In this document: positions 27,140 to 29,521 of the stretch, one piece after another
Numbering within the stretch: the first letter of the stretch is position 1
How the letters are laid out: each line of letters starts with the position of its first letter
Source of the DNA: Leptospirales bacterium
Lineage (GTDB): Bacteria; Spirochaetota; Leptospiria; Leptospirales; Leptonemataceae
Direction: 5' to 3'
Assembly: GCA_019694655.1 (NCBI GenBank)
Contig: JAIBBN010000002.1
Location: 372,001-436,000 of the forward strand
Length of the DNA stretch: 64,000 nucleotides
Program-made: the position numbers and the translations under genes
The notes under the pieces: model-generated
Told to the model about the DNA's origin: nothing
The model's input: the letters and a program-made list of their open reading frames with translations, nothing else
Database searches by the model: none

Positions 27140-27337
27140 TCACCGGGCGAGGAAGTGCATCAACTCAAGAGCAATGCGGTTGATTGCATGATCCATGTAG
27201 CCATCATCAGAAATCTTACGTTTGAATTCTGCGATGTTGCGATGCGGATACGGAAGTCCCCGTTTCTTGAGCAGCACCGGATCCAGACCAAAGTCCTTGG
27301 CCTCGACTGGCGCCTCCTGGTCGAGCAGCGTTTTCAT
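27140..27337 (-). CDS. Small unknown protein under a CsrA-like leader
   Basis: A 65-residue soluble protein (MKTLLDQEAPVEAKDFGLDP and then LLKKRGLPYPHRNIAEFKRK, ending in a helix NRIALELMHFLAR). I do not recognise it. Support for a real gene comes from a well-placed AGGGA ribosome site seven bases before the ATG, protein-like composition, and a structured leader. Two hairpins with GGA loops lie immediately upstream, one containing the ribosome site. It converges on comM and lies about 200 bases after yraN. A regulatory or motility-related role is possible but only a guess. Confidence 0.65.
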   Translation of the reverse strand: MKTLLDQEAPVEAKDFGLDPVLLKKRGLPYPHRNIAEFKRKISDDGYMDHAINRIALELMHFLAR

Positions 27338-27338
27338 G

Positions 27339-27374
27339 GTTACATCCCTGTAACATTTATTTCCATCCGTGGAA
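27339..27374 (-). promoter_or_regulatory. Two GGA-loop hairpins resembling a dual CsrA-binding leader
   Basis: Reading the reverse strand, GTTACA-GGGA-TGTAAC (27354 to 27339) forms a six-pair hairpin whose loop carries the ribosome site of the 65-residue gene. Its core ACAGGGATGT equals the selected CsrA consensus ACARGGAUGU. Directly upstream, TTCCA-CGGA-TGGAA (27374 to 27361) forms a second hairpin. The two GGA triplets are separated by 18 bases, a spacing that suits both sites of one CsrA dimer. No csrA gene is in the window. Confidence 0.6.
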
Positions 27375-27541
27375 CGCCGGAATCATTGACCCCGACGCTT
27401 TTCAGGATCGACGCGGCTCGAAGCTTGCCCGGTAACAAAACAATTGGGCGCGTTGATTTCAGGCCGCGGCGGGATTTTATTACGACGGCGCTTATGTCGC
27501 AGGCTAGAGCCGCAGCCCCTTCGCCCGCCCATTGACTGCCA

Positions 27542-27967
27542 TCACAATTCCCCTTCCAGATATTGGACGATTTGGCCGCCGCTGACAAGCGCAAGATCGA
27601 AGGAGATCTCCGGAAATTTACCGGACCGCAGTTCGCCGGCAATGCTCTCCGCTACTTTGCCGGAAGAATCCTCCGACTGCCACTCGCCCTGCTGAAGTCT
27701 CTCTAGAAACAGCAACGCCGCCTGACGCATGCGCTGGCGTCGCTGGCGGCCAAGCAGAGTTGCCGGATGGAAATCAGGATCAATACGCAGACAATGCTTG
27801 ACCTCGACAAAGTGCAGCCGTCCGCCCGGGGCCCACAAGCAAAGATCCAGCTCCGTGCGACCGAGCCGGAGGTTGTGTCCCAGGAGTTGCCAGCCGCGTT
27901 CGCGCAGCCAGGCGGCGACCTGTTCCTCCCCTGGATCGCGGAATCTTCCGCTACGCAGCCGCTTCAG
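27542..27967 (-). CDS. yraN: YraN/UPF0102 nuclease-like protein, probable CTG start
   Basis: YraN family protein with a PD-(D/E)xK nuclease-like fold, often found near rnhB. From CTG 27967 it is 141 residues and complete: RSGRFRDPGEEQVAAWLRER, then GHNLRLGRTELDLCLW (the ExD active-site element; GEIDLI in most members), then LHFVEVKHC (ExK), then a C-terminal FDLALVS strand. The first ordinary start, TTG 27838, would remove the N-terminal third including the ELD acidic residues. CTG 27967 overlaps the stop of the upstream HD-GYP gene as CTGA, mirroring the ATGA overlaps elsewhere here. An unusually long acidic/Ser-rich insert follows the ExK region. Confidence 0.8.
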   Translation of the reverse strand: MKRLRSGRFRDPGEEQVAAWLRERGWQLLGHNLRLGRTELDLCLWAPGGRLHFVEVKHCLRIDPDFHPATLLGRQRRQRMRQAALLFLERLQQGEWQSEDSSGKVAESIAGELRSGKFPEISFDLALVSGGQIVQYLEGEL

Positions 27968-29202
27968 ATCTCCGCTTCCAGATCGATACTGGCAGCCGCA
28001 GGGTCCAGGGCGCGAACAATGTAAAGATCCGCTTCCTTGATTAGATCCAGGAACTGTAGATTGGGCGGCGTTGCGCCGTCGGCGCCGCGCATCACGCGCA
28101 ATACAGGCCGCAGAGGTTTTTCCGCCCGTGAGCTGACAACCATGCCAACAAATTGATTGCTGAGCTGGACCAGCGATCCCAGCGGATAAATGGAAATGCG
28201 ACCAAGAAACGTACGCAGCAAGCGCGGGTCGAAATGGTGCATCTGCACCGAAAGCATATGCTTCATTGCGTCGTAGGGTAGATGACCCTTGCGATACGGG
28301 CGGCGCTCGATCATTGCTGTATAGACATCGGCGATCGTCGCAATGCGCGCGGTCTCTTCGATCTGACCGCCTTTGAGCGATTGCGGATAGCCCTGCCCGT
28401 CAAAGGATTCCTGGTGCTGCAAGGCAACAGTGGCAAGCGAGGCCTTTACCTTGCCGTTTTTGACAAGCAATTGGTAACCAATGAGCGGGTGCGTCTTGAC
28501 CGTGGACCGTTCCGCCTCATTCAATTCGCTGCTTTTGTCGCGAACGTGCAATGGGATGCGCAGCATTCCGCAATCCATCAGCAACACCGCAAAGACAAGC
28601 TCGTGCAGGCGAGGTCGCGAATAGCCCAGCGCTTGTCCAAGGACGGCAGCGTAGGACGCAGCATGAATCGAATGAAAAAGATGCGCTGGTCCGCTGAAGC
28701 GCAAGCCATGAAAACCGATCAGTTGCAGAGGCTTGCCCAGCAATTCATCGGCCAGCCTGCCCGCTGTGCGCATGACGGATTGATTGTCGAAGGCTTTGCC
28801 ATCCATCAATTGCTGCAAATTTGTCTGCAATCCGTCCGCACATTCCTGCACCATGGTGCGGAATGCGCGTCGCGCCTTGCGAAAGGCCTCGTATTCCAGG
28901 GCCAGCTGTTTCAATTCCGGATCATTCGACGATGCCCGCGGCATCTCGGCCACCATTGACGGCTGTTCCGCCGTCGTCGCCGTTGGCATGGCAGCTGCGC
29001 CGCTTGCCGGCGCTTCTACAACATTGAGGTTGATCGGATTGCCATTGGTTTCAACCTCAAGAATTCCCCACTTTTTCAAGCGCTCGATATCCTTGTCGAG
29101 GATCTCCTGTCGGCTCTGGACCAATACGTTGTTAGGATCAATATAAACTGGCTGGTCGAAGGCCATTCCGGCGCGGAGCTCGCTGACTTTGATGCGCTTC
29201 AT
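27964..29202 (-). CDS. HD-GYP-type signalling protein with degenerate metal site
   Basis: A 412-residue protein with an N-terminal DUF3391-like domain (MKRIKVSELRAGMAFDQPVY) and a C-terminal HD-GYP domain, a fold that usually degrades cyclic di-GMP. GQGYPQSLKGGQI and IADVYTAMIERRPYRKG match the family, but the metal ligands are altered: the HD pair reads VLLMDCGML and the HHE box reads LQHQESFDGQGYP. It is probably not a functional phosphodiesterase and might act as a c-di-GMP sensor or scaffold. It follows flhX and precedes yraN, which it overlaps. Confidence 0.85.
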   Translation of the reverse strand: MKRIKVSELRAGMAFDQPVYIDPNNVLVQSRQEILDKDIERLKKWGILEVETNGNPINLNVVEAPASGAAAMPTATTAEQPSMVAEMPRASSNDPELKQLALEYEAFRKARRAFRTMVQECADGLQTNLQQLMDGKAFDNQSVMRTAGRLADELLGKPLQLIGFHGLRFSGPAHLFHSIHAASYAAVLGQALGYSRPRLHELVFAVLLMDCGMLRIPLHVRDKSSELNEAERSTVKTHPLIGYQLLVKNGKVKASLATVALQHQESFDGQGYPQSLKGGQIEETARIATIADVYTAMIERRPYRKGHLPYDAMKHMLSVQMHHFDPRLLRTFLGRISIYPLGSLVQLSNQFVGMVVSSRAEKPLRPVLRVMRGADGATPPNLQFLDLIKEADLYIVRALDPAAASIDLEAEI

Positions 29203-29212
29203 CTGCTCTCAG

Positions 29213-29521
29213 TTAATCCTTCTGTCGTCGACGCTCTTCGTCCAGTCGATATATCAGCGAAAAGACAGCCGCCAGCGCTCGATACAGCGTTTCCGGAGCT
29301 TCTTTTCCCGGCGGCGTGGCCCGCAACGCCTCGCTCAAACCCGCGTCTTCGACCACCGGCACGCCGGCCGCCCTGGCCGCAGCCAGAATGCGATCGGCGT
29401 CGGCGCCTCGGCCACGCGCGACAACACGCGGGCCGCGATCGCGCGTGCGGTCGAAACGGAGGGCCTGGGCCAGCCGATAGCCGACTTGCTTTTCCCTGCT
29501 TCTTTGATCGGGCGCCAGCAT
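29213..29521 (-). CDS. flhX: FlhX: free-standing FlhB C-terminal domain homologue
   Basis: A 102-residue cytoplasmic protein equivalent to the C-terminal domain of the flagellar export switch FlhB. Matching segments are YRLAQALRFDRTRD, GPRVVARGRGADADRILAAA, AGVPVVEDAGLSEAL and PETLYRALAAVFSLIYRLDE. The membrane part of FlhB and the NPTH autocleavage motif are absent, as in B. subtilis YlqH and other FlhX proteins. It follows a YlqG-like gene and rnhB, the same order as in Bacillus. Start ATG 29521. Confidence 0.9.
   Translation of the reverse strand: MLAPDQRSREKQVGYRLAQALRFDRTRDRGPRVVARGRGADADRILAAARAAGVPVVEDAGLSEALRATPPGKEAPETLYRALAAVFSLIYRLDEERRRQKD

Follow-up and report, generated by a model that had tools for sequence, protein, structure and literature searches.

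What is the function of two small RNA hairpins, each displaying GGA in its loop, that stand directly before a 65-residue reading frame in a Leptospirales bacterium, and what does this reading frame encode? Both are found in a stretch of 64,000 nucleotides, here referred to as the window. The original prediction, made from the sequence alone, was that the hairpins likely form the leader of a CsrA-repressed mRNA and that the gene behind them, of unknown identity, may belong to the CsrA regulon of motility and lifestyle.

A conserved pair of GGA hairpins

Both hairpins lie on the minus strand, upstream of an ATG start codon at 27335-27337 (minus strand). The upstream hairpin, hairpin 1 (27361-27374; TTCCACGGATGGAA, i.e., TTCCA-CGGA-TGGAA), has a CANGGANG-type hexaloop and is supported by its sequence, its fold and covariation over 63 distinct sequences. 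Hairpin 2 (27339-27354; GTTACAGGGATGTAAC, i.e., GTTACA-GGGA-TGTAAC) rests on its sequence, its fold, its near-constancy across the class and the paired changes of the locus L058 (see below); a single C separates it from the ATG, as read from the sequence. Its loop, AGGGAU, includes the Shine-Dalgarno-like AGGGA that forms the ribosome site of the reading frame, and the segment ACAGGGATGT within the hairpin matches ACARGGAUGU exactly and the SELEX consensus RUACARGGAUGU at 11 of 12 positions. The two GGA motifs start at 27368 and 27347, respectively, i.e., 21 nt apart from start to start with 18 nt between them, and the latter begins 10 nt from the start codon. Two claims of the original prediction, that adjacent GGA-loop hairpins lie 18 bases apart at 27339-27374 and that one of them combines an exact ACARGGAUGU with the ribosome site, both held, the former on sequence and fold and the latter, for hairpin 2, on sequence.

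RNA folding of the 58-nt leader returned both hairpins, and exactly these two, while in a 141-nt stretch the minimum-free-energy structure gives hairpin 1 a different, competing pairing. The folding energy is ordinary (z -1.2 for 58 nt and z -1.5 for 141 nt) and stability therefore does not count as evidence for the leader. There are 43 CANGGANG sites in the window (both strands), only 3 of which have a stem of >=4 bp, and 2 of these 3 are hairpins 1 and 2; after mononucleotide shuffling (20 replicates) a window held on average 1.85 single hairpins of this kind and no pair of them. Rfam returned no matches in the window at gathering score.

That the paired GGA hairpins are real is settled by their conservation in dozens of genera. 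Both recur before homologues of the small gene in families f1-f6. Hairpin 2 is nearly invariant in the class (GTTACARGGAWGTAAC, with ACARGGAWGU in nearly all members), and its GGA is found 9-12 nt from the ATG. In hairpin 1 of f1-f6 the CANGGANG motif is constant and the stem is variable, the variants including TTCCA/TGGAA, CCCA/TGGG, TTTTCA/TGAAAA, GTTCTC/GAGAAC, TGACTC/GAGTCA, GGCCA/TGGCC and GAACCA/TGGTTC, among others. The 63 distinct hairpin 1 sequences were gathered by the CANGGANG motif and pairing was not a criterion. At least four contiguous pairs were present in 53 of the 63, compared to 10% of 355 other CANGGANG sites from the same loci. Paired cells amounted to 86.8% (57.3 +- 1.9 upon shuffling), double-changed cells to 122 (43.1 +- 6.2 upon shuffling), and the covariation score was 0.742, compared to 0.206 +- 0.024 for shuffled sequences and <=0.247 for slid registers. 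Because related hairpin 1 sequences are not independent, these shuffle counts are not probabilities. Covariation in hairpin 2 is confined to the two outer pairs, with one paired change each; since this hairpin hardly varies, its stem rests on conservation, without independent proof by covariation. Selection at the RNA level is shown by covariation for hairpin 1 and by near-invariance for hairpin 2, i.e., the leader is a conserved, structured RNA element in a dedicated position.

A covariance model that covers the two hairpins (R2), which replaced a model with a misaligned hairpin 1 arm (R1), was run over 61 whole genomes and gave one strong match per genome of the class, ending at the ATG of the homologue of the 65-residue gene. 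In the genome of the window this match has E=3e-12, and the next best has 0.25; relatives also gave weak secondary R2 matches. Because R2 is biased to sequence, it is the exact element that is single-copy; the architecture has not been shown to be so. Outside the class, L058 (GGCTACACGGAGGTAGCC, genome G057 of another family) has both hairpins with an altered hairpin 2 stem. In several other classes hairpin 1 is found as CTGTTCATGGAGGAACAG-type hairpins ~30 nt before the start, and hairpin 2 is replaced by an unstructured GGAGG. In other families, which are taken here to be Treponema-like and Brachyspira-like, the gene is kept and the leader is absent; CsrA control is thus not essential to the function of the gene.

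Variations in the leader were also observed. In some members of family f3 (L045, L047, L050, L053) a variable insert, which here and there forms a hairpin lacking GGA, is found between the two hairpins, with hairpin 1 at 47-81 nt before the start (81 nt in L045 and L053). L003 has one more hairpin with GGA, its third, located upstream of hairpin 1 and ~69 nt before the start codon (GCATCAGGATGTATGC).

The small protein, FlgM and sigma-28

The reading frame, here called "mini-FlgM" (27140-27337, minus strand; 65 residues, stop codon included), follows yraN (UPF0102; 27542-27961 with an approximate 5' end, minus strand; Pfam PF02021, 45.4 bits). An intergenic stretch (27375-27541, minus strand) extends from the yraN stop to hairpin 1 and is the place where a promoter of its own would lie. 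At loci where the upstream gene is readable, the gene upstream of the homologues is usually yraN, as it is in the window, and in the Treponema-like and Brachyspira-like families the small gene is located directly behind yraN and apparently coupled to it. In families f14 and f22 (within L141-L176), which have no GGA leader, the gene likewise lies directly behind yraN, often overlapping it or a few bases away. In the window, an HD-GYP gene (27964-29202, minus strand) abuts yraN directly upstream, and a gene for FlhX (FlhB C-terminal-like) is found further upstream (29213-29521), which places c-di-GMP turnover beside a FlgM-like gene.

A sigma-28 (late flagellar) promoter, defined as TAAA-N15/16-GCCGAT-like, was not clearly present before the window gene in its own genome, nor in most of its family. 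In other classes a sigma-28-like TNWW-N15..17-NYCGAW is found ~35 nt before hairpin 1 in 23 of 26 loci, and in f3-f6 sigma-28-like matches are located 21-24 nt before hairpin 1 in 5 of 12.

A search for related loci that started from the window protein alone returned nothing, and an alignment was needed for that purpose; the named genomes then found with the protein are Leptospirales, Leptospiraceae and Spirochaetia MAGs, from which membership of the window's genome in the Spirochaetota is inferred. Among related genomes, homologues were found in 54/61 at E<=1. A profile detected the small protein in nearly the whole class (46/48 genomes) and in 205/296 genomes of the phylum (Spirochaetota). 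Most members are 41-84 residues long, and Y47, A51 and A56 (window protein numbering) are invariant in 39 diverse members. AlphaFold predicts two confident helices, residues 35-43 and 45-64. A Foldseek search with this model gave no match, which says little for a 65-residue, mostly helical model; a PDB sequence search with the small protein yielded nothing relevant, and neither Pfam nor NCBIfam recognized the protein above cut-off.

The similarity that does emerge is to FlgM and is confined to the C-terminal ~45 residues of the small protein (residues about 30-64 in the window). Comparison by hhalign with spirochaete FlgM, using 99 members, gave a score of 32.0 (P 8.8e-6, probability 83%), while 100 column shuffles gave 9.1 +- 1.9 with a maximum of 14.3 and the reversed control gave 9.1; an earlier profile comparison with 29 members was suggestive (P 0.0014). 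The match remains without four possible intermediates (P 1.7e-5); it is weaker with leader-bearing members alone (P 0.001) than with leaderless members alone (2e-6). No tested member passes the gathering cut-off of Pfam PF04316 (25 bits), the best reaching E 0.012-0.017 at 16 bits, and the window protein alone has no Pfam match. The profile similarity as such is shown, and from it the small protein is inferred to be FlgM-like, not FlgM; binding to sigma-28, which together with export through the flagellum would be a further mark of the FlgM family, is likewise inferred.

Identity of the 65-residue protein with canonical FlgM was considered and rejected, as a separate PF04316 FlgM is found in the same genome (G000:C19, 28.0 bits), which makes the small protein a paralogue at most. 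This canonical FlgM (G000:C19:23927-24112, L240, 99 aa) has just upstream of its gene a segment, GGCCGATAATG, that resembles a sigma-28 -10 element, and autoregulation of FlgM is therefore possible. In another genome (G073), the short yraN-linked protein L156 starts with MDKINNIGNI, like canonical FlgM, and is the best scorer against the FlgM profile; such an intermediate form may hint at descent of the small family from FlgM.

FliA (E below 1e-60) is found in 241/296 genomes and FlhA in 278/296. The small protein is present in 195 of the 241 FliA-containing genomes versus 10 of the 55 without FliA, and most of the latter 10 are draft genomes, in which FliA could have gone undetected. It is absent from all 31 genomes of f38, which are flagellate and have no FliA, and from all 12 of the non-flagellate f49. 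Family f38 is taken here to be Borrelia-like from its fit to the description of Borrelia, which, unlike other spirochaetes, is without sigma-28 (PMC11607428). While the co-occurrence itself is shown, it is a likely conclusion, drawn from a pattern with few independent losses behind it, that the gene is tied to sigma-28 and not to flagella as such.

A putative CsrA operator and competing readings

The genome of the window has one csrA (87.5 bits), located directly behind fliW, and csrA is found in nearly all leader carriers. Its product, as read from the sequence, has LVLARKV (N-terminal) and VSVHRSEV segments; these segments carry RNA-contacting residues of CsrA. Flagellin leaders were collected from related genomes of the same order, 34 distinct ones in all; a CANGGANG hairpin with >=4 bp, typically GTTTCANGGAGGAAAC, covers the ribosome site in 17 of them, and 6 have a second, upstream CANGGANG hairpin. 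Leptospira CsrA binds the flaB3 and flaB4 leaders via a GGA hexaloop (PMC8668096). This binding, together with the architecture shared with flagellin leaders, is the best indirect evidence for CsrA as the ligand; there are no binding data for the window leader. None of 20 canonical flgM leaders, that of the same genome included, has such a hairpin.

Examples of the GTTTCANGGAGGAAAC hairpin over the ribosome site are the flagellin leaders L222, L226, L227, L212, L233, L237 and, in the genome of the window, L231, and in several genomes the second hairpin of the flagellin leader lies 24-44 nt upstream, i.e., in the layout of the window leader. Another near-perfect CsrA-type hairpin of the same genome, GTACAGGGATGTAC (G000:C1:221553-221566; L036:1501-1514), lies between fliA, on its upstream side, and flagellin genes; as a further leader-type consensus match it was set aside because of its position inside a flaG-like coding region.

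The leader is likely a two-site CsrA (RsmA/RsmE-type) translational operator that represses a FlgM-like sigma-28 regulator, where CsrA binding, repression, relief by FliW and binding to sigma-28 are inferred. A CsrA dimer would dock on the CANGGANG hexaloop of hairpin 1 and reach across 18 nt to hairpin 2 with its ACARGGAUGU loop, where it would cover the Shine-Dalgarno sequence and block initiation of the 65-residue reading frame. CsrA is known to bridge distances of 10-63 nt between its sites and does so best at around 18 nt (PMC7652899), and the window leader meets this geometry, with 18 nt between the GGAs and one site over the Shine-Dalgarno sequence. If Bacillus and Campylobacter are a guide, FliW would sequester CsrA during flagellin export and thereby lift the repression. 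The predicted product, a short FlgM-like protein with the sigma-28-contacting C-terminal region and without the canonical FlgM N-terminal part, would then adjust the activity of FliA (sigma-28) together with flagellin synthesis. It might inhibit FliA or stabilize it; a stabilizing effect of FlgM has been reported in T. denticola (cited in PMC12655853).

The original prediction fared well against these data. It would have been refuted by the absence of csrA or by loss of the stems or GGA loops in relatives, and neither was the case: csrA is present beside fliW, stem covariation is strong for hairpin 1 (hairpin 2 is too invariant for much of it), the GGA loops are conserved and the same leader stands before homologues throughout the class, in modified form in other classes. 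The claimed architecture of a CsrA-repressed leader, with a dimer bridging two sites, is supported by conservation, geometry and csrA, with CsrA binding itself inferred. The link to a motility regulon is supported by the FlgM-like C-terminus, the tracking of sigma-28 across the phylum and the similar flagellin leader hairpins. The claim that the gene is unknown held only in part: no family matches above cut-off, but the product is a FlgM-like, yraN-linked small protein.

Of the alternatives, the one that survives best is that CsrA does target the leader, while the 65-residue protein has no relationship to FlgM and serves the flagellum or the envelope in some other way. In its favour, the likeness is limited to a simple helical stretch of about 45 residues and stays below the Pfam cut-off, and Foldseek found no match. 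Against it stand the profile-profile score, which greatly exceeds those of 100 shuffles and of the reversed control, the FlgM-like start and best FlgM-profile score of the yraN-linked L156, and an occurrence that follows FliA and not merely the presence of flagella.

Two further readings keep CsrA as the ligand and change its effect; both appear unlikely. In the first, the leader is an abundant CsrA sponge and the small reading frame is secondary. The near-ideal consensus and the hexaloops in both hairpins would fit, and the C. jejuni flaA leader does titrate CsrA (PMC4894983). However, hairpin 2 lies exactly on the ribosome site at a nearly fixed spacing to the ATG in the class, and the reading frame is conserved phylum-wide, even where the leader is missing. 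In the second, CsrA activates by opening or stabilizing the mRNA instead of repressing, for which there is precedent in leaders with two sites, i.e., ymdA and flhDC (PMC7652899). Here, however, the Shine-Dalgarno sequence is displayed, unpaired, in the loop of hairpin 2, so that CsrA would cover it, which is the classic geometry of repression.

It is very unlikely that the hairpins control translation without CsrA, either through another RNA-binding protein or as an intrinsic thermometer-like structure. The lack of binding data and of an Rfam match in the window leaves room for this reading, but the invariant part is the CANGGANG loop and not the stem of hairpin 1, whereas a thermometer or a stem that sequesters the Shine-Dalgarno sequence would keep that sequence paired; moreover, csrA is present in nearly all carriers. 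A transcription factor that uses the inverted repeats as operators at the DNA level, as two short palindromes near a start codon might suggest, is all but excluded, because the stems vary freely with compensation and the asymmetric loop GGA is constant on the coding strand.

The preferred reading, repression of a FlgM-like protein by CsrA, can be extended: Spirochaetota would have a second, truncated FlgM-type regulator of sigma-28, its translation locked by a double-hairpin CsrA operator, through which the FliW-CsrA flagellin sensor would feed sigma-28. This bolder reading remains tentative, and the balance tips slightly against it. No description of such a FliW-CsrA to sigma-28 loop was found in the open-licence literature searched. 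The control of sigma-28 in spirochaetes and the existence of a functional FlgM in Leptospira have been named as open questions (PMC12655853); LEPBI_I1327 is a proposed Leptospira FlgM (PMC4863578), and the genomes searched here included no named Leptospira species. If true, the reading would join the CsrA-FliW flagellin checkpoint to sigma-28 across much of a phylum. The leader also adds an RNA element that Rfam does not match, and the gene a family of small proteins unrecognized by Pfam and NCBIfam.

Relation to known systems

The closest parallel to the leader is the C. jejuni flaA 5' UTR (PMC4894983), a 45-nt leader in which two ANGGA hexaloop stem-loops stand side by side and the second occupies the ribosome site. 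It shares with the window leader the 21-nt GGA spacing and compensatory changes in relatives; it is repressed by CsrA, relieved by FliW and part of the sigma-28 regulon. However, it controls flagellin, whereas the window leader precedes a FlgM-like protein, and it has been described within Campylobacter, whereas the window-type leader spans several Spirochaetota classes. The Leptospira flaB3 and flaB4 leaders (PMC8668096) come from the same class and also have a GGA hexaloop near the start codon, where CsrA binding is abolished by changing GGA to AAA. These are flagellin genes, though, the flaB2 and flaB3 sites have 4 mismatches to the consensus, and the study does not mention flgM or an anti-sigma factor. 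In the E. coli glgC leader a high-affinity upstream hairpin tethers the CsrA dimer, which bridges to a Shine-Dalgarno site (PMC7652899), as proposed here, but the gene is unrelated and the downstream site is described as a Shine-Dalgarno overlap, not as a conserved hairpin.

As for the protein, its C-terminal helical region aligns with the C-terminus of FlgM (PF04316), from which it differs in being shorter (41-84 aa), in having mostly no recognizable FlgM N-terminus and in its separate locus next to yraN; a canonical FlgM coexists with it in the same genome. Control of an anti-sigma factor by CsrA has precedents. In E. coli, CsrA acts on the mRNA of the anti-sigma factor Rsd (PMC10746276), which, however, targets sigma-70. 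The C. jejuni flgM mRNA is bound by CsrA in vitro (PMC4894983) and is likewise an anti-sigma factor mRNA; it differs in encoding canonical FlgM, and the passages of that study on flgM report no double-hairpin leader dedicated to it. For T. denticola, an interaction between FlgM itself and CsrA has been reported (cited in PMC12655853).
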